Source: a virus
Virus record (IMG/VR): IMGVR_UViG_3300017991_000013
Location: 1 to 64,000 of that record
Strand: one strand, 5' to 3'
DNA length: 64,000 bases
The position numbers were made by a program, and so were the translations under genes. The notes beneath the pieces were generated by a model. The model was not told the DNA's origin and made no database searches. It saw nothing but the letters and a program-made list of their open reading frames with translations. Of the stretch, positions 3,304 to 51,393 are shown piece by piece. How positions within the stretch are numbered: position 1 is the stretch's first letter; each line of letters begins with the position of its first letter.

Positions 3304-3306
3304 ACG

Positions 3307-3528
3307 ATGGTGACCCACGCGTTGGTACCCGAGTCGGTGCACGCCGACCGCGAGCACCCCGCCAAGATCGTCGACCCGCTCTACGGAACCTTCGAGGTGC
3401 TGCACACCGAGGAGGGCTTGGTGATCCGACGGGTCGGTCTACCGCCGCACGTCGTGGTGCGCGGCGAAGACAAGAGCGAGGTCTGGTTGAGTGAGGGCGC
3501 GGTCATCAAGGAGATCGTGCTGAGGTAG
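3307..3528 (+). CDS. Hypothetical protein, 73 aa
   Basis: Not recognised. It is rich in V, E and R with alternating hydrophobic residues (FEVLHTEEGLVIRRVGLPPHVVV), suggesting a small all-beta domain. It starts at ATG 3307, three bases after the preceding stop. The binding site would be the GGGAGAC at 3294-3300. It sits in a run of short genes with no recognisable partners. Confidence 0.5.
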   Translation: MVTHALVPESVHADREHPAKIVDPLYGTFEVLHTEEGLVIRRVGLPPHVVVRGEDKSEVWLSEGAVIKEIVLR

Positions 3529-3540
3529 GGGGACAACGAG

Positions 3541-23522: not shown

Positions 23523-24128
23523 ATGCTGGTTGGTTGCGTCATCTATTACGAGGACTGTCTTGACCTCTTGGAGAGGTGCTTCACCTCTCTACGAGCCCGG
23601 GTCGATAGACTCGTGGCCGTGGATGGGGCATACGAGAGCTTCCCGCACGACCTACCGTGGTCGAGCGAAGCGCACCTCCAAGTGGCCAAGCGATACGCGG
23701 ACGTTCTCTGGTCGACCGGCGTACCGTGGGCCGACGAGATCGAGAAGCGGAACTCGTACCTGGAGCACTGCGATCCGGGCGACTGGGTGCTGGTGCTCGA
23801 CGCCGACGAAGAGCTGCACGGCAGACTGCCGGTGCTCGACGAGGCGCAGGTCGGTTACAACGTCACACTCCATCAGGACTGGCTGCAACCCAGACCTGTG
23901 TTCAGGTTCTTCCGCATGTCGGAAGGGCTGCACTATCGCGGAGCGCACAACGCCCTGTTCGATGCCGAGGGTCGGCTGCTGAACCACGAGGTCACCGAGA
24001 CCTTGCCGAACCTCAACATCGAGCACCACGCGTGGAAACGCCCCGCGGAACGAGTGAGCGCGAAGGGCATCTACGTGAGGGCCCTCGCGGAACGAGAGCG
24101 CGCGTTTCGAGAGGAGTACAAGCTGTGA
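23523..24128 (+). CDS. Glycosyltransferase, GT-A/family 2-like, 201 aa
   Basis: Transfers a sugar from a nucleotide donor. The N-terminal VGCVIYYEDCLDLLERCFTS is like the first strand-helix of GT2 enzymes. VDRLVAVDGAYESF is the second strand, and the metal/nucleotide motif is VLVLDADEELHG near residue 96, followed by a short acceptor part with LHYRGAHNAL. At 201 aa it is a minimal catalytic domain. ATG at 23523 with GGAGCGAAC upstream is preferred to a TTG at 23457. It lies directly after the capsid gene, which suggests a capsid-related acceptor (inference). Confidence 0.78.
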   Translation: MLVGCVIYYEDCLDLLERCFTSLRARVDRLVAVDGAYESFPHDLPWSSEAHLQVAKRYADVLWSTGVPWADEIEKRNSYLEHCDPGDWVLVLDADEELHGRLPVLDEAQVGYNVTLHQDWLQPRPVFRFFRMSEGLHYRGAHNALFDAEGRLLNHEVTETLPNLNIEHHAWKRPAERVSAKGIYVRALAERERAFREEYKL

Positions 24129-27484: not shown

Positions 27485-28009
27485 GTGGGGATGCCCAAGC
27501 GCGACGCTCAGGGACGCTTCGTCGCGGGCTCGGGCTCGAAGGGCAAGAAGGGGAAGCGGATCAAGGACACCTTCTCGCAGATGTTGAAGCAGATCGAGAA
27601 GCAGGTACCGAACGAGGTGCGGGAAGCGATGGAGATGGTGGCCCGCAAAGCGGAAGAGCAGGCCAAGCTCAACATTCCCGTGGAGAAGGGAACCGCGCGG
27701 CAGAGCATCACGGTCAAGGAGAAGCTCCGCAAGAACGTGTACATCTACTACCTCGGGACGAACGTGACCAGCAAGGACGGCTACCCCTACCCGGTCGTCT
27801 TGGAGTTCGGGTCCAAGTGGGTGACCGTCGGGACGCCGCGTAGTCCGCTCAAGTCGTGGCCCGCGAAGCAAGAGAGGGGCGGCGGCTGGGACATCATGCC
27901 GTGGCTGCGACCCGCGATCCGCTCGGTGCAGAGGCTGATGGAGAAGTCGCTGGCGAAGGCCATCGGGAAGTCGGCGGGTAGGTTCAAGGTGAGGGAGCGA
28001 AGAGGGTGA
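27485..28009 (+). CDS. HK97 gp10-like neck/tail-completion protein, 174 aa
   Basis: The region MVARKAEEQAKLNIPVEKGTARQSI and YPYPVVLEFGSKW, with a C-terminal MPWLRPAIRSVQRLMEKSL, matches the gp10-like family (N-x-P-V-x-x-G, YP..lEFG, Pwl.PA). The basic N-terminus carries KRDAQGRFVAGSGSKG. GTG at 27485 directly after the previous stop. It sits between the closure protein and the next glycosyltransferase. Confidence 0.75.
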   Translation: MGMPKRDAQGRFVAGSGSKGKKGKRIKDTFSQMLKQIEKQVPNEVREAMEMVARKAEEQAKLNIPVEKGTARQSITVKEKLRKNVYIYYLGTNVTSKDGYPYPVVLEFGSKWVTVGTPRSPLKSWPAKQERGGGWDIMPWLRPAIRSVQRLMEKSLAKAIGKSAGRFKVRERRG

Positions 28010-28674
28010 AGACCGCGATCGGCATCCTGACCCACGCTCGGCCCGAGAAGTTCCAACGGGCCCTGTGGTCAGCGATCTACCAAGAGCCGGACGCGATCTA
28101 CGTCTGCTTCGCGGGACAGCGTTATGAACTGACCGAGAAGCTGAACGAGAGCTTCGAGGAGATCGAGGGCTACGGACCATGGATCGGGAGGTCGCGAGCG
28201 TCGATAGCGAACCACGCGTTCCGCGACGGGTGCCACGCACTGATCGAGCTGGACGACGACGATGTGATGTTGAACGGCGCGTACGAGAGGATGAAGGGTG
28301 CGCTCGGTCGGGTCGACGTGGTCTACGGTGACTTCGTGGTGCACACCGACCACGAGCAGAAGACCATCGAGAAGCCGGAGTACGAGCGCGGCCTCTTCAA
28401 GAGCGGGTGTCACAGCAACGGGGTGCGCGGCTACACGATAGCGGCGTACCTGCGAGCGGGGAAGCACAACAAGTTCCTCAAGCTGTGTTCCGACTTCGAC
28501 CTCTTCCTGCGCTTCGACATGGACGAGGACACTGAGCTGCTTCGTGTACCCGACGGTCCGCTCGCGGTGGTCGGGGTCGAGGGCGACAACCTATCGGTCG
28601 AGCAGTGGCCCGAACAGATGTCGGTGGGCCAAGCACTGGTCCGGGCATATTACCCGGAGGAGGTCAAGGCGTGA
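28006..28674 (+). CDS. Glycosyltransferase, family 2-like, 222 aa
   Basis: The start TAIGILTHARPEKFQRALWSAIYQ is a GT-A first strand-helix. ALIELDDDDVMLNGAYERM near residue 85 is the metal-binding D-D-D motif, and the 200-250-residue length is that of a bare catalytic domain. GTG at 28006 overlaps the preceding stop by 4 nt. It is followed by an epimerase that could supply its sugar donor. Confidence 0.78.
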   Translation: MKTAIGILTHARPEKFQRALWSAIYQEPDAIYVCFAGQRYELTEKLNESFEEIEGYGPWIGRSRASIANHAFRDGCHALIELDDDDVMLNGAYERMKGALGRVDVVYGDFVVHTDHEQKTIEKPEYERGLFKSGCHSNGVRGYTIAAYLRAGKHNKFLKLCSDFDLFLRFDMDEDTELLRVPDGPLAVVGVEGDNLSVEQWPEQMSVGQALVRAYYPEEVKA

Positions 28675-29672
28675 GGGTACTGGTCACCGGGGGCTGCGGG
28701 TTCATCGGCTCGCACATTGCGAACGGTCTCGCCAAGCGCGGGCACACCGTGGTCGCGTACGACAACATGTCGGGCGGCTCGATGGACAACGTGGACACGC
28801 ACAGTGTCCGAGTGGTCGTGGGCGACTGCGCCGACGTCGAGAACATGGACCAGATAGCGAACCGCTTCCGACCCGAGGTCGTGTACCACCTCGCGGCGAA
28901 CGCGAGGGAGGGCGCGTCGTTCTTCGATCCGCGCCGAGTGGTCAAGGATAACCTCTTCGGCTTCACGACGGTGCTGGAGCGGTGCCTCGCCGCGAACGGC
29001 GTCAAGAAGGTCGTGATGTTTTCGAGCATGGCGATCTACGGGATCGGGTCACCGCCCTTCAACGAGGACGACGACCCGAAGCCGTGTGATGTCTACGGCG
29101 TAGCGAAGGCCGCGATGGAGCAGACCCTGCGGTGCATGGCAGGGGCGCACGGGTTCGAGTGGACGATCATCCGACCGCACAACGTCTTCGGTCCCGGGCA
29201 GCGGCTCGACGACCCCTACCGCAATGTCGTCGGCATCTTCACCAACCGAGCCATGCGCGGCGAGCCGATCTACATGTATGGCGAGGGGCACGAGCGTGCG
29301 TTCTCCTACATCGACGACTCCCTGACCATGTACCTGCGAGCGGTCGACGACGACAAGTTCGACGGGCGCGTGGTGAACGTGGGCGGCGAGGAAGTGGTCA
29401 CGATCCGCGAGCTGGCCATCGAGGTGCTCAAGAACTTCCCGCTGTCTCGCTCGAAGATCAAGGTCCTGCCACCGCGGTACGGCGAGGTCAAGCACGCGTA
29501 CTGCGAGCACCCCGTCGCGAGGTCACTGGGCTTCGAGCCGATGACCCCGCTGGCCGAGGGCGTGCGCCGCTACTGCGAGTGGGCGAAGCGGCAGGGCAAG
29601 AAGGACTGGCGGTACGAGGGCCTCGCAATCGAGAGCGACCTCATGCCCGAGACGTGGCGTGAGAAAAAGTAG
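28671..29672 (+). CDS. NAD-dependent sugar epimerase/dehydratase (extended SDR), 333 aa
   Basis: Converts a nucleotide sugar, for example UDP-glucose/galactose-type. The Rossmann G-x-x-G-x-x-G is VTGGCGFIGSHIANGL at residues 5-20, with D31 for NAD. The catalytic residues are S in MFSSMAIYG and Y-x3-K in YGVAKAAMEQ near residue 142, with the R-P-H-N-V-F-G-P substrate loop near residue 167. Length is typical of GalE-like enzymes. GTG at 28671 after CGGAGGAGG. It is placed among glycosyltransferases inside the neck region. Confidence 0.85.
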   Translation: MRVLVTGGCGFIGSHIANGLAKRGHTVVAYDNMSGGSMDNVDTHSVRVVVGDCADVENMDQIANRFRPEVVYHLAANAREGASFFDPRRVVKDNLFGFTTVLERCLAANGVKKVVMFSSMAIYGIGSPPFNEDDDPKPCDVYGVAKAAMEQTLRCMAGAHGFEWTIIRPHNVFGPGQRLDDPYRNVVGIFTNRAMRGEPIYMYGEGHERAFSYIDDSLTMYLRAVDDDKFDGRVVNVGGEEVVTIRELAIEVLKNFPLSRSKIKVLPPRYGEVKHAYCEHPVARSLGFEPMTPLAEGVRRYCEWAKRQGKKDWRYEGLAIESDLMPETWREKK

Positions 29673-37492: not shown

Positions 37493-37815
37493 ACCCTTGG
37501 TGGTTCCAGCGCCTCGTTGACCTGTTCGGTGAAGAGTACGGCTGGACGAGGGACGACACGCTCGACCTCTTTCCAAGGGAGGCCGAGATTCTCTCGACCA
37601 TCATCGACGGCCGTCGCGCTGGAGAGAAGCTGGAGCGGTTAACAGAGGCAGACTGGCCCAACCTCAAGAAGAGCGTTCGCAGCCAGATCAAGCGGAAGCT
37701 CAAGGAACGCATGGCGACGGCTCGACCCTTCCACCGGCCGAAGTACTCGGCGGAGGTCGAGGCGCGCATGAAGGAAATCCGAGAGAAGCAGAAGAGGGAG
37801 CGGGATGCCCGGTAA
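37492..37815 (+). CDS. Tail assembly chaperone -1 frameshift extension (GT-like)
   Basis: Reading from 37492 in the -1 frame relative to the short chaperone gives about 107 open codons to TAA at 37813-37815, with a coherent sequence: DPWWFQRLVDLFGEEYGWTR early and a basic helical end. There is no start codon in the first about 70 codons, so translation must enter by frameshift from the upstream gene. No canonical X-XXY-YYZ slippery heptamer is evident near the junction. The end overlaps the tape measure start. Confidence 0.7.
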   Translation, partial: DPWWFQRLVDLFGEEYGWTRDDTLDLFPREAEILSTIIDGRRAGEKLERLTEADWPNLKKSVRSQIKRKLKERMATARPFHRPKYSAEVEARMKEIREKQKRERDAR

Positions 37816-40800
37816 CGAAGTAGCAGGGATTTGGGGCGAGCTAGGCGCGGATGTCAATCCGCTGCTCCGTGCTGTCAGCAAGGGCGTCCAAGCCCTCGGT
37901 GTATTCGGTAAGGCGTTGCAGAAGACCCAGCGCGGTCTCGGTACGCTGGGCAAGGCTGTCGCCAAGACGGGTGCCGCTGTCGAGTCTACCGGTCGAGCTA
38001 TCGGGAACGTCGGTCGCAAGGTCCGCAACACCGGGGCAGTCATCACCGCGACCATGACCGGGATCATCGTGACCACGACCAAGATGGCCGCGACCTTCGA
38101 GGAACGCTTCGCCGAGATCGAGACCCTGCTCGGCGGTGTCTCCAGCGTTCAGATCGCGGGGATGCGGAAAGACATCTTGGCGCTGTCGGCGGACTTCGGC
38201 AAGTCGACCAACGAGATGGCGCTCGGCTTGTACGCGACGGTGTCGGCAGGTGTCGACGCCGCGGAGTCCATCGAGTTCTTGGCGAAGGCGACGAAGGCGG
38301 CTATCGGTGGAGTCGCGTCTACCAACGAGGCGGTGTTGCTCGGGACCGGGGTCATCAAGGCCTACGGTCTACAGTGGAAGGACGCGACCCGTGTCTTCGA
38401 CCTCGCGTTCCAGACGGTCAAGCTAGGTCAGACAACCTTCGCGGAACTCGCGCACTCCGTTGGGCGGGTAACGCCTATCGCAAAGGCCGCGAACATCCAG
38501 CTCGAAGAGATGTTCGGTGCGTTCGCTACGCTGACCGGCGTGACGGGTGACACCGCAGAGGTGGCGACCCAGCTACGCGCGATCCTCAACGCGGTGGTCG
38601 GGCAGAGCAAGGAAGCGACCGAGGCGGCAGCGGCACTGGGGTTGGAGTTCAACGCGGCGGCACTGGGGTCGAAGGGTCTCGGCAAGTTCCTCAAGGAACT
38701 CGCGGACTTCATGAAGGACGACGCCGCCATCGCGGCCCGCATGAACAAGATGATGAAGGGCACGGGGAAGATCAGCAAGGAGACGGGAGAACAGATACTC
38801 CTGTTGAACGACCTGCTGGGCAAGACCTTCCTCGAACGCATGGCGGTACTGATCCCGAACCAGCGAGCCATCGCCGCGGCGCTCGCGCTCTCCAACGAGC
38901 AGGCCGCGACCTTCGCCAAGAAGACCAAGGAGATGAACAAGGCGGCGGGGTCGTCGGAGGCGGCCTTCAAGAAGATGTCGAGTACCTTCTTGTTCGGCTT
39001 CCGGCAGATGGTCCAGCAGATGAAGGTCTTCGGGATTCAGATCGGTGAAATCTTCCTGCCGCACATGACGAAGCTGGTCAACGCGATTAAGAAGGTCGTG
39101 ATCCGAATGCGGGACTGGGTCAAGGCCAACCGCGAAGCCATCGACACGGAGATATGGCGCTTCGTCACTCTGTGGACCACGCGGCTCAACATCTTCCTGC
39201 GGCTCTTGAAGACCCACATCATCCCGGTCCTCAAGGAGTGGGCGGAGAAGATCGGTTGGGTCAAGCTCTCGTTACTCGCGATCCTCGGACCGATCATGTT
39301 ACTCGCAGGGCTCGCGCTCACCATCGCGGCTCCCTTCATCGTGGCGTTCGGGAAGATCATCGTGGTAGTCGGGGGACTCATCTCCAAGCTCTGGTTGCTG
39401 GCGCCGATCTTCCTCGTCATCGGGAAGATCATCGCAGACGCGTGGAAGGAGGTGAGCGGTAGCACGCTGACCTTCCAAGACGTGATAAAGGGCGTCGTCG
39501 ACACGTTCTTGCTGGTCCGCAAGAAGATCAAGGACGCGGTGCAGTTCATCGCGGACTGGATATTCAAGCAGTGGTTGCGAGTGAAGCACCGAGTCATCCC
39601 GATAATCAAGGACCTCGTCAAGCAAGCGGCGAGCGCGTGGGCGTGGCTGGAGGGAAGGACCAAGGAGGTCTGGGCTGCGATTTCCCTCTGGCTCAATACC
39701 ACGGGGATGGACATCTGGAACACGGTCTCCGAGTGGTTCCAGAAGATCGCGGACTTCGTCATCTCGACCTCGGTGTGGTGGTTCAACGCGATGAAGCCGA
39801 AGTGGCTGGCGATCCTCGCGCTGGCGAAGCAGGTGTGGTCGTCGGTCTGGACCATCATCCAGAAGTTCTCTCGCGTTATCGGAGAACACATCCGCGAGGT
39901 GTGGACCGGGCTCTCGGAGTTCTGGGCCGAGAACGGGGACGACATCCTCGAAGTTCTCAGCATGTTCTGGGAAGCGGCCAAGCGTGGGTTCGAGCAGATG
40001 CAACGCAACATCGCTACCGCTATCCACTGGATCATCTCGGTGTGGCGCCTGATAGAACCCGCGGTCATGTTCATCATCGACATCATGCTGTCACTGTGGC
40101 GGCACACGATGCGGATATGGCGAGCCATCGCTCGCGTGATCGGTGACGCGATGATGATCGTCGTGTCCATCATCCGCGGAGACTGGCAGAAGGTCGGTCG
40201 GTTCATCATCGACTTCCTCGTGTCGCTGATGTCGCTGTTCCGCAAGATGTTCTTCCCGAAGGAACTGATCGCGGACATCATGCGAGCCACCGTTCGGTTC
40301 ATCATCGACGGGTGGAAGCGTATCTTCGAGTTCGTCGGGATGATCTTGCAGAAACTCTGGAACCTCGTCTGGAACACCTTGAAGAAGATGGCCAACACCA
40401 TCTGGACTCTGATCTTCCCGCACAAGATCATCGCGAGTGCACTGCTCAAGGGCTTCAACCTAATCAAGGGCATGTGGGACCGAATCCTCAACTACACGAA
40501 CAAGATTTGGTCCAAGGTTCGAGACAAGGTCACCAACACGCTGATGTTCTGGAAGAAGGGTTCGCCGAGAGTCACCGACGTGCTGGGCAAGTCATTGACC
40601 ATGATCGGCGACCAGCTCTCGGCCTTCCAAGAGACCGTGGACATCTCGGCGACGCGGACCTTCACGACCGAGGCCGCGCTCGCTGGTGCCGGCGCCGCGG
40701 GTGCCGAAGCCGGTGGACCCTCGACCGTCAACATCAACATCAAGCAGCCCGTGGACCGCTCGGTAGTTCGCAACGCGATCATACCAGAGGTGACCACGGC

Positions 40801-40840
40801 TGGGAGACGCGGGCGTACCCAGTTGGGTAGAGAAGGATAG
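37805..40840 (+). CDS. Tail tape measure protein, 1011 aa
   Basis: Sets tail length and is ejected at infection. The N-terminal third has the TP901-type tape measure region: VSSVQIAGMRKDILALSADF, GLYATVSAGVDAAESIEFL, AKATKAAIGGVASTNEAVL, then TPIAKAANIQLEEMFGAFA. Strongly hydrophobic segments near residues 490-550 (LSLLAILGPIMLLAGLAL, IIVVVGGLISKLWLLAPIF) are membrane-like, followed by long helical, tryptophan-rich stretches. ATG at 37805 overlaps the frameshift ORF. The length suggests a tail of ordinary siphovirus size. Confidence 0.9.
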   Translation: MPGNEVAGIWGELGADVNPLLRAVSKGVQALGVFGKALQKTQRGLGTLGKAVAKTGAAVESTGRAIGNVGRKVRNTGAVITATMTGIIVTTTKMAATFEERFAEIETLLGGVSSVQIAGMRKDILALSADFGKSTNEMALGLYATVSAGVDAAESIEFLAKATKAAIGGVASTNEAVLLGTGVIKAYGLQWKDATRVFDLAFQTVKLGQTTFAELAHSVGRVTPIAKAANIQLEEMFGAFATLTGVTGDTAEVATQLRAILNAVVGQSKEATEAAAALGLEFNAAALGSKGLGKFLKELADFMKDDAAIAARMNKMMKGTGKISKETGEQILLLNDLLGKTFLERMAVLIPNQRAIAAALALSNEQAATFAKKTKEMNKAAGSSEAAFKKMSSTFLFGFRQMVQQMKVFGIQIGEIFLPHMTKLVNAIKKVVIRMRDWVKANREAIDTEIWRFVTLWTTRLNIFLRLLKTHIIPVLKEWAEKIGWVKLSLLAILGPIMLLAGLALTIAAPFIVAFGKIIVVVGGLISKLWLLAPIFLVIGKIIADAWKEVSGSTLTFQDVIKGVVDTFLLVRKKIKDAVQFIADWIFKQWLRVKHRVIPIIKDLVKQAASAWAWLEGRTKEVWAAISLWLNTTGMDIWNTVSEWFQKIADFVISTSVWWFNAMKPKWLAILALAKQVWSSVWTIIQKFSRVIGEHIREVWTGLSEFWAENGDDILEVLSMFWEAAKRGFEQMQRNIATAIHWIISVWRLIEPAVMFIIDIMLSLWRHTMRIWRAIARVIGDAMMIVVSIIRGDWQKVGRFIIDFLVSLMSLFRKMFFPKELIADIMRATVRFIIDGWKRIFEFVGMILQKLWNLVWNTLKKMANTIWTLIFPHKIIASALLKGFNLIKGMWDRILNYTNKIWSKVRDKVTNTLMFWKKGSPRVTDVLGKSLTMIGDQLSAFQETVDISATRTFTTEAALAGAGAAGAEAGGPSTVNINIKQPVDRSVVRNAIIPEVTTAGRRGRTQLGREG

Positions 40841-40843
40841 GGG

Positions 40844-41227
40844 ATGGCGAGTACGACGATCACGTTGCAGAAGGGCGCGGGCACACCGGTCTCGTTGCCA
40901 GGTCCCTCTCCCGATTACGCGGGGCGCTCTGACCTGCACCAAGCACTCGGCCGAACGATGGACGGAACGGTTTTCGTGTATGACCACGGGGTCACCACGT
41001 ACCCGGTGCGCCCGGTACTGATCGGACTCTCGGACGCGCAGAAGTCATCGCTGGAGACCTTCTTCCGAACCGAGGTCGAGGGCATGCTGTACACCTTCAC
41101 CTACACCGACACGAACGGGGCGAACTTCACCGCGCGCTTCATCGAGGACAACCTATCCTTCGAGAAGAAGTCCAAGAACAACTGGGACGTTGCGCTTCCG
41201 ATGGAACTCAACTCCGTGGTGGGGTGA
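40844..41227 (+). CDS. Minor tail protein (distal-tail-like), 127 aa
   Basis: A beta-rich protein of a size and position typical for the first tail-tip component after the tape measure: TTITLQKGAGTPVSLPGPSP, GTVFVYDHGVTTYPVRPVLIG, and a final strand set LYTFTYTDTNGANFTARFIE. ATG at 40844 after GAAGGATAGGGG. It probably joins the tube to the larger tip protein that follows; the assignment is by context and composition. Confidence 0.6.
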   Translation: MASTTITLQKGAGTPVSLPGPSPDYAGRSDLHQALGRTMDGTVFVYDHGVTTYPVRPVLIGLSDAQKSSLETFFRTEVEGMLYTFTYTDTNGANFTARFIEDNLSFEKKSKNNWDVALPMELNSVVG

Positions 41228-41230
41228 CCC

Positions 41231-44200
41231 TTGCGCTCGCTGACCGGACCAACTAACACCGAGAAGAACTCGACCTCGACCAAGCCGCGCCTCGTGGTGA
41301 GGGTCGACTGGCCCTCGCCCATCGGTACGAAGTACTACTCCGAGCAGGCGCTAACGATCTCGGGCGGCGTGGTCACCGAAGCCCGCCTCGTGTCCACCGG
41401 CGTGGTCGACATGCCCCTCAATCCCGACCAAGCTAACTCGCTCAACGTGATCTCGGACTTCTCGTTCGTCCTGCGAGACGAGGACGCGGTGATCCGCGAG
41501 TATGTCCAAGAGGTGCAGACCGAGAAGTCACCGGTCTACATCTACCAGCACTTCGTGGGCAACGCGGTGGCGGACCTCACGCTCCTCATGAAGGGCATGT
41601 TGTCGTCGCCGATCTCGAAGGACACGTCGAGAGCTACGATGCGGTTCGACGTAGAAGACGTCGTCGCTCTCTTCGAGAAGAACATCGGGACCATTGCGAA
41701 CCAGAGCGACTTCCCCGACGTCTGGCGCGAGGACGAGGGCAAGATGTTGCCCATCGCCTACGGCAAGGTGCCGCGCGTTCAGTCGGTGTGCATCCAGCGA
41801 GGCTACACGACGGTGCTCGCGGAAGACATCGACGCTACGCAAGACTCGTTCCACGTCAAGAACGGCGAGCACTTCCCGCAGGGCGAGAACATAAACATCC
41901 GCGTCGGGACCGAAGAGATGCGCGGTTCGTTCGACGGGGTGAAGTTCACCGCGATCCAGCGACCGCGACGCGTTCACGAAGCACAGACCACGCACCGCTG
42001 CGGCGGCGCTCGAAGGCTACGCGACTTCCGACTACCCGTGGACTTCCCCACCGACAACGAGTTGAAGGGCTATCGGGTTCGGCTCTTCATCTTCGGGTTC
42101 TCGGTGCGGCGTACCATCATCGCGTACGACGCGAGGCTCGGCGTCATCAAGGTCGACCGACCCTTCTACAAGGAACTCAACCCCTTCATCGGCGAGCGCG
42201 TGCCTCGCGGCGCCACCTACTACATCGAGACGCCGACCTCGAAGCACTCGCGCGGCGAGATCGTGGAACACGTCCTGCCCTCGGGGATCGTCTACGCCTG
42301 CAACGACGCACCCTCGCGTTCCATCACCAACATCGAGGTGCGGGCGCAGTTCAAGATCGCGGCAGCTACCTCCGACGAGGTGAAGCAGGAGGAGACCGAG
42401 AATCGGTTCACGCCGATCAATCCGTCGGACTACGTCGTCAAGCTGAACGACACCTCGTGGGGTCTTGGACACGGGATCACCACCATTCGGTTCAAGCGGC
42501 CGCTCGACCTGATCGAACCGAACATCGTCGAGGATGGACTCTGGGTAACCTTCAAGGCCACCGTCGATGGGTCGAACAACTTAATCGAAGACCCGGACAA
42601 GGTGACCTATGACCTGCTCACGCGACACGCTGGGGTCTCGGCGAGTGACCTAGACCTCGCGAGCTTCAACGCGGTCAACCCGCTGGTCAATCACCTCGAC
42701 ATGGCGTTCGCTCTCCACGAGACCAAGAACGGTCTCGACGTCGCGGCGGACCTAGCGTTTCAGTCGAGGTCCGTGCTGGTCTGGGAAGCGGGCAAGGGCT
42801 ATCTCCGCTACCTGACCAACTCGCCCGCTGCGGCGGCGACCTCGACCGTGGACCAAGACGACATCCAGCTCACGACGCCGCGTCTCAGTCTCACCCCGGT
42901 GGAACAGCTGTTCACCTCGGTCTATGCGAGGTACACCGATGACGACGACACCAAGTTCGTGGTGGTCGAAGACACGTCGGCTATCTCGGCGTATGGTCGA
43001 ATCCAGAAGCGTGTCGAACTGTGGGCGTACCAGACTCGAAGCTCGGCCGCAGAGATCGCAGCGTTCTGGCTCAAGCGGTGGGCGTTCGTCTACGAGTGGT
43101 TGCAGGTCCGCACCTTCCTCACCCGCTTAGAGGTGCAACGCCTCGACACGGTCGAGATGGATGCGGGCGACGTGGTGCCGAGCGGGGTTAAGGGTATCGT
43201 CGAGCACGTCAAGCAGTCTCCCGGGTCAGGGACCTCTGGGCAGATGGACCTCATCGAGTTGGAGGTCCGCCTACCTCGCGGCCCCGGGTGCGACACCTCC
43301 CTTTGCGAGATTTGTCAGGCGACCTGCGAGACAGGGCAGGAGACCTGCGTAGCGTGCGAGACCGGGGAAGCCTGCGCGTATTGCGACTCGTGTCAAGACT
43401 TCCACGAGCTGTCGGGTGGCTGCGGCGTGGTCACCGAGTCCGCGGGCGACGGCGACTGCACTTACTCAGAGGGATCGCCCTGCACTTCGCAGTGGGGTTG
43501 CGGGGTCACCGAGCAAGGTGACGGGGACATCTGTCAAGACTGGGAACAGAACCACTGCACCGACACGTGCATGATCTCGTGCGAGCCTTGGCGCGAGACC
43601 GGCTGGGACGACTCCATCGACTACTGCCCGACCGACACCGGTATCTGCGACTCGATCATGTGCTCGGTCGACGACGTCTTCCACGACACCGAAGACGATC
43701 CCAACTGTGGCGAGACTTGGTGCGGGCTGACCGAGACCAACTGCGCCGACTCGGTGCAGGCTGAGGGTTGCGGCTGGCTCTGCGAGTCGGTCGAGACCAA
43801 CGACGAGGAGTGGTACGACGATAAGCTCAACGTCGGGTTCGAGCAGCCGACGCAGGTGACCGACGGTGACCGCGAGTCAGACCTCTCGTACCCGTTCTAC
43901 ATCTGGGCACAGACCGACTCGCTCGGCGTGCGCGGCCGTCCAACCAAGGGCGCACCGCTAGAGGTCTTCAACCGCAACATCGAGTGGCACCACTCCGAGG
44001 TTCCGGAGGACAACGGGCTCTACGTGACCGACAACATCGTGGGCACCGACCTCGGGTTGAGTTACCTCGAGGGCCAGATCTTCCCGACGTGGGAGACCGA
44101 CGAGGCCTACATCACCGACGTGTCGCAGGCTTCACCTTCTGCTGCACAGAAGAAGGGCGACACGACCAAGGTGGCTCGCTCGAACCACGAGCACGGGTTC

Positions 44201-45652
44201 GATGGGTCTGCCTTCGCGGGGACCAACATCACGTGGTCGGGCGGTCAGTTCAACGCGACCGGTGGCGGTGGTTCACCGGGGTCAGACATTCAGAACGTCA
44301 AGACCGCGAACGCCGCGGGGTCCAACAGCGAGTACGCTCGCGACGATCACGAGCACGCCTTCGTTCGACGGACCGCCGGCAACAGTGGGACGCCGCACTA
44401 CTCGGGGATCGAGGCCACCGGTACAGGGACCGACGAGTGGGGCGTGATCTGGGAAGACGACGAGGCCTACATCACCGACGTGACTCAAGCCTCGCCGTCG
44501 GCGGCAGAGAAGAAGGGCGACCGCTCCGCGGTGGCGCGGGCCAACCACGAACACGGGTTCGACGGTACCGCGTTCGCTGGCGAGGGGCTCGGCTGGGCGA
44601 CCGACGCCTTCAACGCCGACTGGGAAGCTACGCTCGGGAACATCGCCTCGGTCAGCGACACGACGGGCGCGGTGGGGTCGAGCACGAAGGTGGCTCGCGC
44701 CGATCACAAGCACCTCTTCAACGGCGCCGCCTTCGCGGGGACCAACATCACCTGGAGCGGCGGGCAGTTCAACGCCTCGGGCGGTGGCGGTACACCGGGG
44801 TCCGACATCCAGAACGTGAAGACCTCGAACGCCGCGGGCTCGAACTCCGAGTATGCTCGCGACGATCACGAGCACGCCTTCGTTCGCCGCACGTCGGGCA
44901 ACAGCGACTCCGCGCACTACTCTGGCTTGGAGGCCACCGGTAGCGGGAGCGACGAGTGGGGTGTGATCTGGGGAGACTCCGGCGGCGAGGTGACCGACGT
45001 TCTCACTGGGTCGCCCTCGACGAAAGAGGGCACGACCAACAAGGTCGCCCGCATCGACCACGAGCACGGGTTCGACGGGACGAACTTCGCGGGCTTCACG
45101 ATCAAGTGGTACTACGGTGCGTTCGAGGTGGACGCCACTACGTTCCTCTCTAACTACGCGCCGCGAGACGTGGACACCTATGGCGGCGCTGCGGGCATCG
45201 GGACCGACGCGAGTAAGAGCGATCACAAGCACGGGTTCGACGGGACGAACTTCGCGGGCAACAACATCACGTGGTCGAGCAATCAGTTCCACGTCTCCGA
45301 CGGCGCGGGTCTCTCCCCCTCGACCGAGGTTCCCCTCGACGTCGACGGCACCAGCGGGGCGGCGGGCTCAGGTACGCCTTATTCAAGAGAGGATCACGAA
45401 CACGGGTTCGACGGTACCAGCTTCGCGGGCTCGAACATCTCGTGGAGCGGTGGGCAGTTCAACGCGACCAACACCACCTACACCGCGGGCGACGGGCTCG
45501 ACCTATCGGGCACCGAGTTCAGCGTGAAGCTCGCAGCCTCGAACCCGGGGCTGGAGTTCGTGGGCACGGGTACCGACGAGCTGGACGTGAAGCTCAAGGG
45601 CAGCGGCGGTCTAGCGAAGGACAGCAGCGGGCTCTACGTCGTGTGGGAGTAG
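41231..45652 (+). CDS. Large tail tip/adsorption protein with cysteine-rich and HxH-repeat regions, 1473 aa
   Basis: The N-terminal about 650 residues form the tail-tip part (beta-rich, e.g. LVVRVDWPSPIGTKYYSEQA, IYQHFVGNAVADLTLLMKG), similar in size to baseplate hub or tip attachment proteins. Residues 687-851 hold 25 cysteines in about 165 residues, interrupted by acidic spacers. Residues about 960-1420 contain eight HxH motifs (NHEHGF, DHEHAF, DHKHLF) in recurring G-F-D-G-x-x-F-A-G units. The C-terminus ends in a smooth beta tail. The start is TTG at 41231. It precedes a tail fibre gene and the radical SAM/SPASM gene. Confidence 0.75.
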   Translation: MRSLTGPTNTEKNSTSTKPRLVVRVDWPSPIGTKYYSEQALTISGGVVTEARLVSTGVVDMPLNPDQANSLNVISDFSFVLRDEDAVIREYVQEVQTEKSPVYIYQHFVGNAVADLTLLMKGMLSSPISKDTSRATMRFDVEDVVALFEKNIGTIANQSDFPDVWREDEGKMLPIAYGKVPRVQSVCIQRGYTTVLAEDIDATQDSFHVKNGEHFPQGENINIRVGTEEMRGSFDGVKFTAIQRPRRVHEAQTTHRCGGARRLRDFRLPVDFPTDNELKGYRVRLFIFGFSVRRTIIAYDARLGVIKVDRPFYKELNPFIGERVPRGATYYIETPTSKHSRGEIVEHVLPSGIVYACNDAPSRSITNIEVRAQFKIAAATSDEVKQEETENRFTPINPSDYVVKLNDTSWGLGHGITTIRFKRPLDLIEPNIVEDGLWVTFKATVDGSNNLIEDPDKVTYDLLTRHAGVSASDLDLASFNAVNPLVNHLDMAFALHETKNGLDVAADLAFQSRSVLVWEAGKGYLRYLTNSPAAAATSTVDQDDIQLTTPRLSLTPVEQLFTSVYARYTDDDDTKFVVVEDTSAISAYGRIQKRVELWAYQTRSSAAEIAAFWLKRWAFVYEWLQVRTFLTRLEVQRLDTVEMDAGDVVPSGVKGIVEHVKQSPGSGTSGQMDLIELEVRLPRGPGCDTSLCEICQATCETGQETCVACETGEACAYCDSCQDFHELSGGCGVVTESAGDGDCTYSEGSPCTSQWGCGVTEQGDGDICQDWEQNHCTDTCMISCEPWRETGWDDSIDYCPTDTGICDSIMCSVDDVFHDTEDDPNCGETWCGLTETNCADSVQAEGCGWLCESVETNDEEWYDDKLNVGFEQPTQVTDGDRESDLSYPFYIWAQTDSLGVRGRPTKGAPLEVFNRNIEWHHSEVPEDNGLYVTDNIVGTDLGLSYLEGQIFPTWETDEAYITDVSQASPSAAQKKGDTTKVARSNHEHGFDGSAFAGTNITWSGGQFNATGGGGSPGSDIQNVKTANAAGSNSEYARDDHEHAFVRRTAGNSGTPHYSGIEATGTGTDEWGVIWEDDEAYITDVTQASPSAAEKKGDRSAVARANHEHGFDGTAFAGEGLGWATDAFNADWEATLGNIASVSDTTGAVGSSTKVARADHKHLFNGAAFAGTNITWSGGQFNASGGGGTPGSDIQNVKTSNAAGSNSEYARDDHEHAFVRRTSGNSDSAHYSGLEATGSGSDEWGVIWGDSGGEVTDVLTGSPSTKEGTTNKVARIDHEHGFDGTNFAGFTIKWYYGAFEVDATTFLSNYAPRDVDTYGGAAGIGTDASKSDHKHGFDGTNFAGNNITWSSNQFHVSDGAGLSPSTEVPLDVDGTSGAAGSGTPYSREDHEHGFDGTSFAGSNISWSGGQFNATNTTYTAGDGLDLSGTEFSVKLAASNPGLEFVGTGTDELDVKLKGSGGLAKDSSGLYVVWE
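44100..45460 (+). repeat. Degenerate tandem repeats inside the tail-tip gene
   Basis: DNA and protein repeat units encode a [ND]H[EK]H-[GAL]F followed by G-x-x-F-A-G-x-x-[IL]-x-W and a glycine-rich spacer. Two units, at about 44160-44450 and 44690-44950, are near identical over roughly 260 bp, including the segment encoding SDIQNVKT[AS]NAAGSNSEYARDD. GAGGCCTACATCACCGACGTG occurs at 44102 and 44462. Recent internal duplication is the simplest explanation. Confidence 0.75.
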
Positions 45653-45655
45653 GTC

Positions 45656-46708
45656 GTGGCTTGGTCGGACTTCGCTTCGCTGGTGGCCGGCACCAGCCAG
45701 ATGCAGCTCTCCCACTTCAACGACATTCGGTCGGCGTTGATCGAGCGGTGCGACTGGGTCGGTGACTCGACACAGAAGACCGCGGCGCAGGCTCTCTCTA
45801 CTACCAACCCCTTCAACACCACGTGGCTGATCGCGGCGCGTGACATCTGTCAGGCGCTGTGCACGCAGTACAACCGCCCCGGCTTAGCGTACGCCTCTGG
45901 GTCTGCGCACGGATTCTGGTCCGTGGTCAGCATGAAGAACTATCTGCACTCCACCTATGGTGAACCGGGCGGCATGGGGTACATCGCTCCGAACTACAAC
46001 TGGATTCTTCGCCCGACACGAAAGGGCACCTTGACCACCGGCAAGGACATGCCGGCCGCGACGTACCATCCCTACCTCGAACACATCATGGGGTTGTACT
46101 ACGTCATCAACGACATCCTTCGTTGGATACCGACGACGCACGTCTACACCGGACCGATCCGGATGAAGTCCGCCAGCAAGGCGAGCTTCTTTCAGTCAAC
46201 GCCCGCCATCGCTTGGACCGCGATGAAGGCCGCGACCCCAGCACTAAGTGGATTTGTCTCTACCGCGAACTTCGCGTCGTGCTCTATCTCTGGCGGGTCT
46301 AGTTTCAACGGTGGTGACCAGCGCGGCATCTTCTACAAGAAGGTCAGCAACGCGTGGCTCGTCGCGCCTTCGGGGTTCGACGCGGTGAAGTTCTTGTTCA
46401 AGACAGGCGTGGGCGTTTCCTTCCTCGGACCCTACAAGATGCTGGCGAACATCACCGCCACCGCGTCCGGAGCGTATACCACAGGTAGCGCGTTCAAGTC
46501 TTCGTTCTCAATGGGTGCAGCGAACACCTATCTTGAGTTCGACGCGGACAACCCCGGGAACTGGCCGGTCACAACCGGAACGATTCCGATGCTGATCTAT
46601 AACCCCACCTATGACACAACGCAGACCGCGAACTTCGACGAGTCCGCCGGGACCGATGCGGCGAACTTGGGCTTTACCTTGAAACCGACCACGAGTTACG
46701 GAACCTGA
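45656..46708 (+). CDS. Tail fibre-like protein, 350 aa
   Basis: The N-terminus (MAWSDFASLVAGTSQMQLSH and FNDIRSALIERC) is helical, like the attachment domain of phage fibres. The rest is beta-rich with many S, T, G, N, Y and W residues and no enzyme motif. GTG at 45656, four bases after the stop of the tail-tip gene, and before the SPASM enzyme. A receptor-binding role is likely from position; similarity is not strong enough to name a family. Confidence 0.55.
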   Translation: MAWSDFASLVAGTSQMQLSHFNDIRSALIERCDWVGDSTQKTAAQALSTTNPFNTTWLIAARDICQALCTQYNRPGLAYASGSAHGFWSVVSMKNYLHSTYGEPGGMGYIAPNYNWILRPTRKGTLTTGKDMPAATYHPYLEHIMGLYYVINDILRWIPTTHVYTGPIRMKSASKASFFQSTPAIAWTAMKAATPALSGFVSTANFASCSISGGSSFNGGDQRGIFYKKVSNAWLVAPSGFDAVKFLFKTGVGVSFLGPYKMLANITATASGAYTTGSAFKSSFSMGAANTYLEFDADNPGNWPVTTGTIPMLIYNPTYDTTQTANFDESAGTDAANLGFTLKPTTSYGT

Positions 46709-46720
46709 AAGGAGGAACAC

Positions 46721-47812
46721 ATGCCACGGCCGGGCGCGCGGTCGATGGTACTGAACATCAGCCATCGATGTAACCTGAGGTGCAAGTACTGCTTCGTCGA
46801 CCTCGAGAACGAGATGATGTCGAAGGAGGTCGTCAAGAAGGCGGCGAAGGTAATTCCCTGGCGAGACCCGCGAAAGGGTCCCGAGTTCATCTCGTTCTTC
46901 GGCGGGGAGCCGCTTACCAACTTCAAGCTGATCGAGTACGTGGCGCAGCTCTTCCCGAGAGCTACGCTTCACGTCACGACCAACGGGACACTGATCGACC
47001 CCGCGATGATCCGTCTGTTCCAGACGCGGAAGTTCACCTTCATCGTTTCGCTCGACGGCGACAAGGAAACCCACGACGCGAACCGAGTCTACGCTGACGG
47101 TCGCGGCTCGTGGGAGGACGTCGTCAAGGGCTTGGTCAAGCTCCGCGACGCCAAGCTCACGGGGCGGGTCACCCTCCGCGGGACCTACACCATAGACAAC
47201 CCGAACCTCTCGTCGCGGGTCCTCGCGCTCAACGAGGTAGCCGACGAGGGTCTGGCGCACGCCTGCGCCGTCGAGCCCGCCGACGACCGCACCGACGAGT
47301 ACACCGCCGAGCACTGGAAGGAGTTCGCGGACCAGTATCAGCAAGCGGTCGACTGGTGCGTGGAGCGACTCTTCCGAGGGAAGCGTGCTCGCTGGCGGAT
47401 CATGGAGAAGTTCTACGCTCGCGTGAAGACACACCAGCTCCACGCCGCCACCTGCGGCGGAGCCATCGGTGTCTTCACGATCAACCCCGGCGGGGAAATC
47501 TTCGCGTGCCACCGAGAGGGCGACACGCAGGTCGGGCACGTGGACACGGGGCTAGAGCAGGAGCGCCTCGACCAGTGGGCCTGCAACCGCCACGTCAACG
47601 CCAAGCTGGACTGCCGCTTCTGCGGCGCGGCGTTGATCTGCGGCGGACCCTGCCGCTACTCGTCGCTCCGCAACTGCGGCTCGCAGAACGAACCCTTCCT
47701 CGTGGACTGCCGCGTGCGCGGCGTCACCGCACTCAACGCCTACCGCCTAGCTGCGAACAAGCACTGGGACAGCGTGTTGACGCCATGGCTGAGAGACGCC
47801 AAGCGGCGATAG
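46721..47812 (+). CDS. Radical SAM enzyme with SPASM domain, 363 aa
   Basis: Uses a [4Fe-4S] cluster and SAM to modify a peptide or protein. The cluster motif C17-N-L-R-C21-K-Y-C24 is intact, followed by FISFFGGEPLTNF (the GGEP SAM loop) and VTTNGTLIDP. The C-terminal half has the SPASM spacing: C245, G-E-I-F-A-C263, then C298-x2-C301-x5-C307-x3-C311 and C330. SPASM members include anaerobic sulfatase maturases and RiPP peptide maturases. A strong AAAGGAGGAAC precedes ATG. It sits just after the cysteine-rich tail protein and a fibre gene and before a glycosyltransferase. No separate precursor peptide is seen. Confidence 0.9.
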   Translation: MPRPGARSMVLNISHRCNLRCKYCFVDLENEMMSKEVVKKAAKVIPWRDPRKGPEFISFFGGEPLTNFKLIEYVAQLFPRATLHVTTNGTLIDPAMIRLFQTRKFTFIVSLDGDKETHDANRVYADGRGSWEDVVKGLVKLRDAKLTGRVTLRGTYTIDNPNLSSRVLALNEVADEGLAHACAVEPADDRTDEYTAEHWKEFADQYQQAVDWCVERLFRGKRARWRIMEKFYARVKTHQLHAATCGGAIGVFTINPGGEIFACHREGDTQVGHVDTGLEQERLDQWACNRHVNAKLDCRFCGAALICGGPCRYSSLRNCGSQNEPFLVDCRVRGVTALNAYRLAANKHWDSVLTPWLRDAKRR

Positions 47813-49497
47813 TCAGGGAAGCGGGCGGCCTCGGAGACGCGACCCAGTGTCTCAGCGTCTGCCGCGCCTACAAGGCGGCGGGCTACGAGGTGACCTACTT
47901 CATCCTGGACTGGTACGAGAACTACGTTCGCCACTCGCCGGACGTCGACCGGGTGGTGGGCGTAGGGTTCCGTGAGCGGCGAGGCCGCGACCAGATGCTC
48001 GACCCGAAACGCTTCCCCTACCTGCTCTCCACGGGGATCGAGTTCGACGAGGTCGTAGACCTCTGGTGCCCGGTCAACTACTACGAGCGGGTCTGCCCCG
48101 GCCCCGTGGACAAGGATCGCATGGAGCTTTGGTTCCGCGCGGCCTCCGTTCCCTTCGCGGGGCTCGGGCGCTTGCAGTTCTCGGCCGAGGAGGAGAAGCT
48201 GGTCGAGGGGACCGTGCGCGGCCTGCTCGACTGGAAGACCGCCGACGACTACGTGATCGTGGTGCCCTACGCCACGGGGCGGGATCGTAGCTGGCCGCCG
48301 TCGCGGTGGCGCAAGGTGATCGACGGGTTGCGGGCGCGGCGCCAGAACGTCATCACATTCGTCGACAAGCCCAGCTTGAAGCGGCAGTTCCCGTTCCCTC
48401 AACTGGGCAAGGTGCCCTTCTGGGTAGTCGCCGCCGTGGTGAAGCGAGCCAAGCTGGTGCTGTCGGTAGACACCGGGCCGCTGCACATGGCGGGAATGAT
48501 GGGCGTGCCAACGATCGGGCTGTTCGGGTGCACCGACGGAGAGCTGACCTGCAACCCCTACCCGCGAGCACACTGGATTCAAGGTCGGGTCTGCGGGCCC
48601 TGCTACTACACGGTGCGTCGCGGCTGGTCTCCGAGGTGCCGCAAGGTCGGGTGCCGCTCCATGCTCCAGATCAAACCGCAGCAGGTACTCGACTACGTGG
48701 ACCGCGTGCTCAAGAACCTGCCAGCAGAACGACGAGCGGTGGACCGCAGCGGACTCGCGGTCTGCACGATCGCGTACAACGAGCCAACCCTAATGCGGCG
48801 GTGGCTGGAGTACTACTACGACAAGGCAGACGAACTCGTGGTCGTGTACGGACGGGTCTCGAAGTATCCGCGCGTGGAGAACGACGTCACCCCAAACATC
48901 GTGTCTCAGTTCCCCGATCCCGAGCACAAGATACAGCTCGTCGCTCGAAAGGTCTGGGACAGCAAGGCGGCCATGCAGAACGCGTGGCTCGACCGCTCCC
49001 GCTGCGGCGTGATCGCGTACCCCGACATCGACGAGTACATCGACGACGTCGAGGCTATCCGCGAGGTGTTCGAGAGGGGCGGCGTTTCCTCCGCGACGCT
49101 GCCGTTCCAGCACTACTACCGCGACACCGATCACGTCGTAGTGGGCGGGCGGTTCGACACGCAGGTAATGCGCGTGATCCGCAGGCAACACGGGTTCCGC
49201 TTTCGCGGCAGGTTCGACAGGTACGAGGGGCCCGGCGGCGCGTACCACAAGGCCAACTCTACCCCGCTGTCCGTGATCGTCCATCACTACGGGTACGCCA
49301 AGCCGCTGTCAGAGATGCGGGCCAAGCACGTCTTTTACTGCGCCCGCGATAACGGGGTGCACCGCGATAACCCAAACTGGTTCGCCGACGAGTACCCCAA
49401 CGAGCCCGGGGAAAAGACGCGCGTGGTGCCGGTCGGAACGTGGTGTCCGTTGCCGCCGTTCCGCGTGTGCAAGGAGAATATAAAGAAGCTGGTTTAA
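47785..49497 (+). CDS. Two-domain glycosyltransferase (GT9-like plus GT2-like), 570 aa
   Basis: Residues about 1-310 resemble heptosyltransferase/GT9 enzymes: IVREAGGLGDATQCLSVCRA, IVVPYATGRDRSWPPSRW, and LVLSVDTGPLHMAGMMGVPT with VDTG-x-H. Residues about 320-560 resemble a GT-A domain: LAVCTIAYNEPTLMRRWLEY and an acidic metal motif, AYPDIDEYIDDVE. The ATG at 47785 overlaps the end of the SPASM gene. A conserved-looking cysteine set (VCGPCYY, RCRKVGC) sits between the two. Probably adds sugars to a phage or host envelope glycan. Confidence 0.78.
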   Translation: MAERRQAAIVREAGGLGDATQCLSVCRAYKAAGYEVTYFILDWYENYVRHSPDVDRVVGVGFRERRGRDQMLDPKRFPYLLSTGIEFDEVVDLWCPVNYYERVCPGPVDKDRMELWFRAASVPFAGLGRLQFSAEEEKLVEGTVRGLLDWKTADDYVIVVPYATGRDRSWPPSRWRKVIDGLRARRQNVITFVDKPSLKRQFPFPQLGKVPFWVVAAVVKRAKLVLSVDTGPLHMAGMMGVPTIGLFGCTDGELTCNPYPRAHWIQGRVCGPCYYTVRRGWSPRCRKVGCRSMLQIKPQQVLDYVDRVLKNLPAERRAVDRSGLAVCTIAYNEPTLMRRWLEYYYDKADELVVVYGRVSKYPRVENDVTPNIVSQFPDPEHKIQLVARKVWDSKAAMQNAWLDRSRCGVIAYPDIDEYIDDVEAIREVFERGGVSSATLPFQHYYRDTDHVVVGGRFDTQVMRVIRRQHGFRFRGRFDRYEGPGGAYHKANSTPLSVIVHHYGYAKPLSEMRAKHVFYCARDNGVHRDNPNWFADEYPNEPGEKTRVVPVGTWCPLPPFRVCKENIKKLV

Positions 49498-49572: not shown

Positions 49573-51393
49573 ATGGCAACCGGACAGCATACGTTGACAG
49601 CCCGCATTGAGGTCACGCTAGGAACGGCAGACCGCTTGGCCATCGTGGTCAAGTCTGGCCCGCTGTTTACCGACACGGTCGACCTCATAAAGGGGTTCCC
49701 CGAGCGGAAGTGGTCCGCTCAAGACTATGAGTGGCGCGTGCCGCTCACCGAGAACAACGTCGCCTATCTCCGCTCGTACTTCCTCGAAGAGGAAATGGAG
49801 ATCGACGACGAGGCTCGGGTGGCCATATCCTATATTGAAAAGACCCGAGAGTTCGAGGAGAAGAAGGCGCGGCGTCGTTGGGAGTACCTCTTCAACGACA
49901 AGGTCCACGAGGTGCCGCACAAGTTTCACACCGAACCCTATCGTCACCAGACCGTCGCGCTCGATTCCATGCACAACGCAGAGTACTTCGCCCTCCTCAT
50001 GGAGATGGGCACCGGCAAGACGAAGGTCGTGCTGGACGAGGCGCTGTGGTGTGCGCGTGAAAGCGACGACCCCTACCGCGTACTGATCGTGGCACCCAAG
50101 TCCCTGCTGCTGAACTGGCGTGCCGAGATCGGAAAGCACCTGCCCGAAGACTTCCCCACGTGGGTGGGTCGGCTGCGTACCGGGGTGAAGGGCTTGGAGT
50201 TACTGCTGGACGGCGTCCGCTCGAAGGCTCGCCTCCAGTTCTACCTCGTGAACTACGAGCGGATACGCTCCATTCTCGAACCGCTCAAGAAGTTCAACTT
50301 CGATCTGTGCGTCCTCGACGAGTCCACGCGGATCAAGAACCCCAACGCGAAGCGGACGAAGGCCACGCACGAGTTGGGGCAGGCGTGCAAGCGTCGAGCG
50401 GTCCTCACGGGAACGCCGGTCACGAACAACGTGTACGACCTCTTCTCGCAGTTTCAGTTTCTCCAGCCCGGCAGCCTCGGGTTCAACTCGTACTACGCGT
50501 ACAAGAACCACTACTCGATCATCGAGCGGTGGAAGGCCGGAGAGCGTGGCGGGCAACGCGAGAAACTGCACGGCTTCAAGAACCTCGACGAGCTAAAGCG
50601 ACGGCTCTCTCGCTGTTCCTTCGTGGTCAAGAAGGCCCAGTGTCTCGACCTGCCTGACAAGACCTACACCACGCGGGCCGTTGAGATGACGCCGAAGCAG
50701 GCCGAGCTGTACAAAGAGATGGAGCAGTGGTTGATCGCGGCCCTCAACAAGGAGTTCCAGGACGCGAGCAAGACGAGCCACGCGGCGGCGACCATCGTCA
50801 AACTGCTGCGGCTCGCCCAGATCACCTGCGGCTTCCTCAAGAGTCTCGACGGAACCGTGACCCCGATCCCCGGCGGCAACCCGAAGCTCGACGAGCTGGT
50901 CTCCATTCTGGAGAATGACGTCGACCCCGACCACAAGGTGCTGGTCTGGGCGCGGTTCCGGCAGGACATCAAGGTCATCGAAGAGGCGCTGGCGAAGTAC
51001 AACCCCGTGGTGCTGCACGGCGGGATCAAGGCCGAGCAGCGTTTCGAGAACGCCGAACGCTTCAACAACGACCCGAGCGTGAGAGTACTTATCGGTGAGC
51101 CGTCAACCGGCGGCCTGGGTCTGAACCTCGTGGGTTCGGCCGAGCACCCCTGCACGACGACCGTCTACTACTCCAACGACTTCTCGTTGGAGAAGCGGTT
51201 GCAGTCAGAGGATCGGTGCCACCGGTCAGGGATGCACACGAAGAGTGCGGTAACCTATATCGACCTCGTGTGCGAGGATACCATCGACGAGAGAATCGCC
51301 ATGATCCTTCAGTCCAAGAAGTCACTGAGCGAGGCGGTGAAGGACCTCTCGACGATCAAGGAACTGCTGCTGGGAAAGCGGCGGACACAGTAG
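49573..51393 (+). CDS. SNF2-family helicase/ATPase with HARP-like N-terminus, 606 aa
   Basis: ATP-driven DNA translocase. The N-terminal FTDTVDLIKGFPERKWSAQD and YEWRVPLTENN resemble the HARP fork-binding domain of SMARCAL1-type annealing helicases. The motor shows Walker A EMGTGKTK (residues 144-151), the D249-E-S-T motif II in LCVLDESTRIKN, and motif III AVLTGTPVTNN. The C-lobe has HKVLVWARFRQDIKVIEEAL, GEPSTGGLGLNL and EDRCHRSG (motif VI). ATG after GAGAGGAGGAAACC. Fork regression or annealing at stalled replication is the likely job. Confidence 0.88.
   Translation: MATGQHTLTARIEVTLGTADRLAIVVKSGPLFTDTVDLIKGFPERKWSAQDYEWRVPLTENNVAYLRSYFLEEEMEIDDEARVAISYIEKTREFEEKKARRRWEYLFNDKVHEVPHKFHTEPYRHQTVALDSMHNAEYFALLMEMGTGKTKVVLDEALWCARESDDPYRVLIVAPKSLLLNWRAEIGKHLPEDFPTWVGRLRTGVKGLELLLDGVRSKARLQFYLVNYERIRSILEPLKKFNFDLCVLDESTRIKNPNAKRTKATHELGQACKRRAVLTGTPVTNNVYDLFSQFQFLQPGSLGFNSYYAYKNHYSIIERWKAGERGGQREKLHGFKNLDELKRRLSRCSFVVKKAQCLDLPDKTYTTRAVEMTPKQAELYKEMEQWLIAALNKEFQDASKTSHAAATIVKLLRLAQITCGFLKSLDGTVTPIPGGNPKLDELVSILENDVDPDHKVLVWARFRQDIKVIEEALAKYNPVVLHGGIKAEQRFENAERFNNDPSVRVLIGEPSTGGLGLNLVGSAEHPCTTTVYYSNDFSLEKRLQSEDRCHRSGMHTKSAVTYIDLVCEDTIDERIAMILQSKKSLSEAVKDLSTIKELLLGKRRTQ

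Follow-up and report, generated by a model that had tools for sequence, protein, structure and literature searches.

Organization of the tail gene region

The 64,000-nt stretch of DNA analyzed in this work (hereafter the window) comes from a virus record of 69,916 bases and belongs to the genome of a tailed phage, as terminase, portal, major head protein, tape measure and tail terminator genes are all present. The features of the tail region considered here are the following (related loci are given by their L numbers):

37805..40840, plus strand: tail length tape measure protein (phrog_991, E 1e-55, and other matches)
40844..41227, plus strand: small tail gene separating the tape measure gene from that of the hub (tblastn; L030 and L033 have homologues in the equivalent position)
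41231..43288, plus strand: putative tail hub/tip domain (aa 1-686) of the proposed substrate protein (homologues in L030, L033, L035, L038, L109 and L110)
43289..43783, plus strand: Cys-rich segment (aa 687-851, 25 Cys; from composition), proposed substrate of the enzyme
44078..45652, plus strand: C-terminal, fibre-like repeats of the same tail ORF (units 'ARxDHEHGFDG...NITWSGGQFNA'; self-matches)
45656..46708, plus strand: 350-aa protein between substrate and enzyme, GTG start (no family match)
46721..47812, plus strand: radical SAM/SPASM enzyme of 363 aa, proposed tail maturase (ten cluster cysteines present, no N-terminal extension)
47785..49497, plus strand: GT9-type and second glycosyltransferase domain in one ORF, overlapping the 3' end and stop codon of the enzyme gene (third cassette gene in this clade)

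The whole tail ORF (41231-45652, plus strand) codes for a protein of 1473 amino acids with 28 cysteines. The first-pass annotation of this DNA had counted 25 of them within about 165 residues, and our recount gives the same number at residues 687-851, where the Cys content of the remaining plus-strand ORFs of the window (1.08%) predicts only 1.8 (P of at least 25 about 4e-21). The segment is also strongly acidic (D+E 24%, K+R 1%), and this is the sole ORF of the window having at least 9 cysteines in any 100 residues. The same annotation had placed the enzyme two genes after the tail-tip protein and had seen no separate precursor peptide gene. Indeed, a single gene (45656-46708) lies between the two, no other Cys-dense ORF exists in the window, and the segment is in frame within the 1473-aa ORF; the short, separate precursor peptide with a leader by which RiPP systems are defined is lacking in the window system.

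The tail ORF follows the tape measure gene and its homologues occupy the equivalent place, as expected for a hub/tip protein, and it is on this position that the putative function of residues 1-686 is based. The exact role as a hub is only putative, since the ORF gave no profile match and its AF2 model was poor (pLDDT 48.7) and too weak for a structure search. A distant, Cys-free homologue of the hub (L114/L115) carries a Thr/Ser linker that replaces the Cys segment, and no enzyme was found in the 28- and 32-kb contigs that harbor it.

Elsewhere in the window, a multi-domain glycosyltransferase, a glycosyltransferase-like gene and a nucleotide-sugar epimerase are found among the structural genes (23657-26554, 28006-28674 and 28605-29672). 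An SNF2-type helicase (49573-51393) directly follows the cassette, and a similar helicase lies close to a radical SAM gene in a Methylococcaceae contig (L006).

The radical SAM/SPASM enzyme

An intact radical SAM motif and the SPASM spacing had been reported at 46721-47812, and both can be assigned to individual residues. The CX3CX2C motif corresponds to C17, C21 and C24, with GGEP at 61-64, and the SPASM region comprises C245, G258-X4-C263, C298-X2-C301-X5-C307-X3-C311 and then C330. The ten cluster cysteines are invariant across 17 phage enzymes. The protein belongs to the radical SAM superfamily (PF04055, 63.1 bits versus a cut-off of 29.5) and, by the pattern C-X(9-15)-G-X4-C ... C-X2-C-X5-C-X3-C ... 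C, to the SPASM subfamily.

The best NCBIfam profile is that of the PapB ranthipeptide maturase (NF047865, E 1e-56), although the score of 192.6 bits is below the cut-off of 340. The next matches, all below their own cut-offs, include the SCIFF maturase (TIGR03974, 136.9 bits, cut-off 425), QhpD (TIGR03906, 134.6 bits, cut-off 453) and the nif11-type maturase, and the anaerobic sulfatase maturase also remains under its threshold (TIGR03942, 74.5 bits, cut-off 349). The best PDB chain by sequence is CteB (5WGG, E 1.5e-34). CteB is also the closest fold (TM 0.81 by query length) to the model of the enzyme, which was built on the alignment of the 17 phage sequences (pLDDT 88) and has the anaerobic sulfatase maturase as its next fold. 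PapB joins Cys to Asp/Glu in CXnD/E motifs with n of 0-6 (PMC9413430), QhpD forms Cys-Asp/Glu thioethers within a protein subunit (PMC7876137), and CteB links Cys to Thr (PMC8326336). Judging from its sequence, the enzyme is most likely to work as a thioether-forming maturase, yet it falls outside every named family; this likeness is based on the best profile (PapB), the best fold (CteB) and the known chemistry of PapB and QhpD.

The window enzyme begins only 16 residues ahead of the CX3CX2C motif and is devoid of the N-terminal domain of about 80 aa shared by most of its relatives. When a RiPP recognition element (RRE), fused to the enzyme or nearby, was looked for, this domain was seen to contain 'F.YD.NSM' in L029-L031, L033 and L038 and gave no Pfam match.

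Co-occurrence of the enzyme and Cys-rich proteins

Single-protein searches revealed no close kin of the whole tail protein, the terminase, the epimerase or pieces of the tail protein (E up to 10), and the radical SAM enzyme used in the same way in viral contigs gave no close kin and one 23% match. Relatives were found only via profile queries and DNA patterns of the Cys repeats.

The enzyme profile retrieved 80 viral loci, 63 without duplicates. An ORF with at least 12 Cys per 100 residues, within 5 kb and on the same strand, accompanies the enzyme in 70 of the 80 (53 of the 63 distinct ones) and in 2 of 24 cellular loci, one of which is a prophage. Under a stricter rule, the Cys ORF was present at 62 of the 80 viral enzyme loci versus 0 of 45 control viral loci; the controls were loci whose match to the Cys pattern was spurious, chosen because the tape-measure alignment was too poor to serve as a neutral query. 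Among the ten enzyme loci devoid of a dense Cys ORF, L029 begins after it and L032 has a shorter Cys segment; in the others (L040, L053, L054, L070, L075, L076, L079 and L096) none was present within 5 kb of the enzyme. In the clade of the window enzyme, the Cys segment is present in every contig that reaches it, and the nearest relatives (L030, L033, L034/L038 and L035) share the order tape measure, small gene, hub with Cys segment, mostly one more gene, and enzyme. Phage phAss-1 encodes a PapB-like enzyme with no Cys-rich ORF within 15 kb, and it may represent an exception to the pairing, outside the clade of the window. Matches labelled gut 'Bacteriophage sp.' were left out as evidence on phages, as they look like cellular SCIFF-type maturases (L003, with no Cys-rich ORF).

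The relationship also holds when the Cys repeat is the query. The DNA pattern for CETGCETxxCE gave 11 genuine records, with the enzyme in 9, and that for five C[EQ]xx units gave 15, with the enzyme in 13; for the latter only long ORFs of mixed composition were kept, since 44 of its 80 matches were devoid of an in-frame ORF (antisense or wrong-frame low-complexity DNA) and several were short and odd. In the four genuine records without the enzyme, the contig stops before the Cys ORF is complete, so that 22 records are informative: where the contig runs past the Cys ORF, the enzyme is present in 22 of 22, versus 1 of 25 control records (Fisher P 1.6e-12), a count that probably includes a few close kin and in which the genuineness of the Cys ORFs was judged by eye. 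No enzyme was found beside three dubious short Cys ORFs (L176, L187 and L216).

The first-pass annotation had proposed that the pairing should be abandoned if the enzyme occurred in relatives lacking a Cys-rich tail protein; searched for in both directions, the pairing was not refuted. That many unrelated phages pair a Cys-packed tail protein with a cross-link-forming enzyme suggests that part of the tail is chemically stapled during assembly.

Residue conservation and the proposed tail maturation

The near-identical phages L030 and L142 have hubs that are 97.5% identical. In their Cys region all the cysteines (54 of 54) and 98% of Glu are kept, whereas the figure for Thr, Ser, Val and Ala is 38-72%, and the Cys codons show 11 silent changes and 0 amino-acid-changing ones. 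In the comparison of L030 with L038, 62 of 64 Cys, 80% of Glu and 16% of Ala are maintained. Hence Cys and Glu behave as a constrained pair against a background of varying residues, in keeping with Cys-Glu/Asp thioethers; that the other positions change faster would fit a surface meeting a varying receptor.

The relatives have acidic residues at fixed offsets from Cys (+1, +5 and -3; z 3-11). The window segment is the least regular one, having no 4-residue period and a best Asp/Glu placement, at +4, that is not significant (z 1.7). This irregularity and the absence of the N-terminal domain from its enzyme make the window an outlying member. Many repeat units carry Gln in place of Glu, and other phage groups possess Cys repeats devoid of acidic residues (CSGSCTGGC, CTCNCNY), so that a Cys-Glu chemistry cannot apply to every group.

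On the whole, we consider it quite probable that the phage encodes a cassette for tail maturation, in which a segment of the tail would be stapled by Cys-to-Glu/Asp thioethers in the manner of ranthipeptides and of QhpD; the modification itself, the Cys-Glu/Asp partners and a role in receptor contact are what we infer. According to this proposal, the ribosome would make a tail hub/tip protein in which one in-frame segment abounds in Cys and Asp/Glu, and the neighbouring radical SAM/SPASM enzyme would act on the segment inside the infected cell. The 5'-deoxyadenosyl radical would remove hydrogen from a carbon of a side chain, with the beta or gamma carbon of Glu/Asp as the likeliest site, as in PapB and QhpD, and the thiolate of a nearby Cys would be joined there as a thioether, with a change of -2 Da per link and many links per chain. 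The outcome would be a stapled, reduction-resistant rod or scaffold at the tip of the tail, one that would tolerate rapid change at the remaining positions and would plausibly be a receptor-contacting part. The host would have to provide a reducing cytosol and Fe-S assembly.

A different chemistry acting on the same segment, such as thioethers to the alpha carbon (as in sactipeptides), links to Thr, Ser or Asn as in SCIFF or NxxcA, or epimerisation/oxidation, is the less likely choice, though a serious one. SCIFF and sactipeptide maturase profiles score well too, the closest fold is that of an enzyme, CteB, in which Cys is linked to Thr (PMC8326336), Thr and Ser are plentiful in the segments, and the CSG/CTG-repeat phage groups have no acidic residues at all; nevertheless, PapB is the best profile, and Glu is kept almost like Cys while Thr and Ser change freely.

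Tail types, fused genes and glycosyltransferases

The window enzyme and ten other phage enzymes form one group of 11 (support 87), the Cys proteins of which belong to different tails. They are siphophage hubs in the window, L030, L033 and L038; a gpI-like protein located after baseplate J in L031 (as also in L184, outside the group); and a protein located between PAAR and baseplate J in L127/L141. As the tail proteins of the group share the Cys segments only, it is the segment that the enzyme follows. Moreover, the Cys segment and the radical SAM/SPASM enzyme are embedded in one ORF in two loci (L037:9668-11158 and L043:5567-7066). In L081 the Cys repeats are followed by a Peptidase_S74 tail-fibre chaperone domain at the end of the ORF, and in L080 they lie at the end of a YqbQ-like tail protein. 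The link between enzyme and segment, previously drawn from adjacency, is thus supported at the sequence level by the two-way co-occurrence, the fused ORFs and the purifying selection on Cys and Glu.

Further observations concern the variety of these systems. The fused ORFs of L037 and L043 adjoin two further Cys-rich ORFs of the tail region. ORFs with CTCNCNY-type repeats lie near a radical SAM gene in L081, L089, L090 and L099, and these proteins probably represent another class of Cys-repeat tail proteins with a different chemistry. In large gut-type viral contigs (L056, L058, L086, L092, L105 and similar ones), a different SPASM subtype is paired with CSG/CTG-repeat proteins, which are 200-480 aa long, contain as many as 92 Cys and are free of acidic residues. 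An additional radical SAM-like gene (L141:3482-4606, G007) lies between a Cys-rich protein of 131 Cys and the main enzyme, and several radical SAM genes also occur in L192 (G024) and L144 (G030). In L031, an intein-like insert (PF14890, residues 75-426) splits the baseplate J protein (539-3676). Lastly, a prophage-like region of the cultured Neglectibacter timonensis SN17 (L018:8358-9041) carries a 31-Cys protein beside a radical SAM enzyme, which makes this strain a possible laboratory model.

A GT9-type (heptosyltransferase-like) gene directly follows the enzyme in ten loci of the clade of the window (the window, L029, L030, L031, L033, L038, L128, L130, L260 and L261), in both siphophage and contractile contexts, and is absent in the other clades; its product may add a sugar to the same tail segment in a second tailoring step. 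This neighbour, with the other glycosyltransferases and the nucleotide-sugar epimerase among the structural genes, would also be in agreement with the idea that the SPASM enzyme acts elsewhere, for instance on a sugar for the adjoining glycosyltransferases, and that the Cys segment is simply a domain of the usual kind, held by disulfides or metal. Extracellular Cys-rich domains are, in fact, often disulfide-bonded. However, we regard this explanation as improbable. The glycosyltransferase is missing from 16 of the 20 tested records that keep the enzyme and the Cys ORF, so that it is not the constant partner, and a modification of glycans by the enzyme ranks low; the constant partner is the Cys ORF, with 22 of 22 records from the Cys side, the enzyme is fused to the Cys segment in two loci, and its closest enzymes are peptide maturases. 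There is similarly little chance that the segment is the precursor of a phage-borne RiPP or bacteriocin moron, fused to or beside tail genes, released by proteolysis and not included in the virion: the enzyme family is that of RiPP maturases and the Cys-rich ORF is a separate protein of 200-450 aa in several phage groups, but the window and its relatives carry the segment in frame in a hub protein of some 1000-1500 aa in which no separate core is obvious, in the window it sits between hub and fibre repeats, and no transporter or protease gene was noticed beside it in the loci listed.

Thioether stapling of the tail segment might be part of something broader, and we give even chances to the existence of a widespread, previously unrecognised pathway, in which mobile cassettes of a SPASM enzyme and a Cys segment (with a GT9-type gene in one clade) would spread among siphophage and contractile tails that are unrelated to each other and would staple the tip by tens of thioethers, forming a rigid, reduction-proof scaffold for varying receptor-contact residues. 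If this were true, enzyme-built thioether scaffolds in phage tails would be a new form of virion maturation and would offer a rich natural supply of cross-linking enzymes whose substrates are long and multi-site, and they would account for a set of uncharacterised Cys-rich phage proteins.

Comparison with known systems

The known targets of radical SAM/SPASM maturases are peptide natural products and a few cellular enzymes, whereas the constant partner here is a structural protein of the tail, across many phage groups and no fewer than three tail architectures. No system joining radical SAM enzymes and phage tails, ranthipeptides and phages, or Cys-repeat maturases and phages was found reported in the open literature (subscription papers and preprints being outside this scope).

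Virion parts can be cross-linked covalently, as in the HK97 capsid chainmail, which is held by autocatalytic isopeptide bonds. The proposed tail maturation shares with it the covalent stabilisation of a part of the virion, but would rely on enzyme-made thioethers in the tail instead of isopeptides in the capsid.

Among the enzymes, the PapA/PapB system (freyrasin, NF047865) has, as here, a SPASM enzyme of the same build and a substrate rich in Cys and Asp/Glu, with multiple links per chain reported for PapA (PMC9413430); PapA is a small peptide natural product, whereas our segment belongs to a large tail protein. QhpC/QhpD of quinohemoprotein amine dehydrogenase likewise combines a SPASM enzyme with Cys-Asp/Glu thioethers in a structural subunit of a larger protein (PMC7876137), but with three links, in a subunit of a cytochrome-bound enzyme having a leader peptide, in comparison with the tens of Cys in a phage tail protein. 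The SCIFF maturase CteB (PDB 5WGG/5WHY), the closest solved structure by both sequence and fold, acts on a short Cys peptide and has the N-terminal domain that the window enzyme lacks. The CXXX-repeat (TIGR04115) and Cys-every-fifth CefB (NF038107) maturases are also SPASM enzymes paired with regularly spaced Cys peptides; the window enzyme scores about 76 versus their cut-offs of 350 and 600, and no open-access paper was found tying either family to phage tails. The chemistry class of the enzyme is a known one, while the class of substrate and the form of virion maturation are apparently new.
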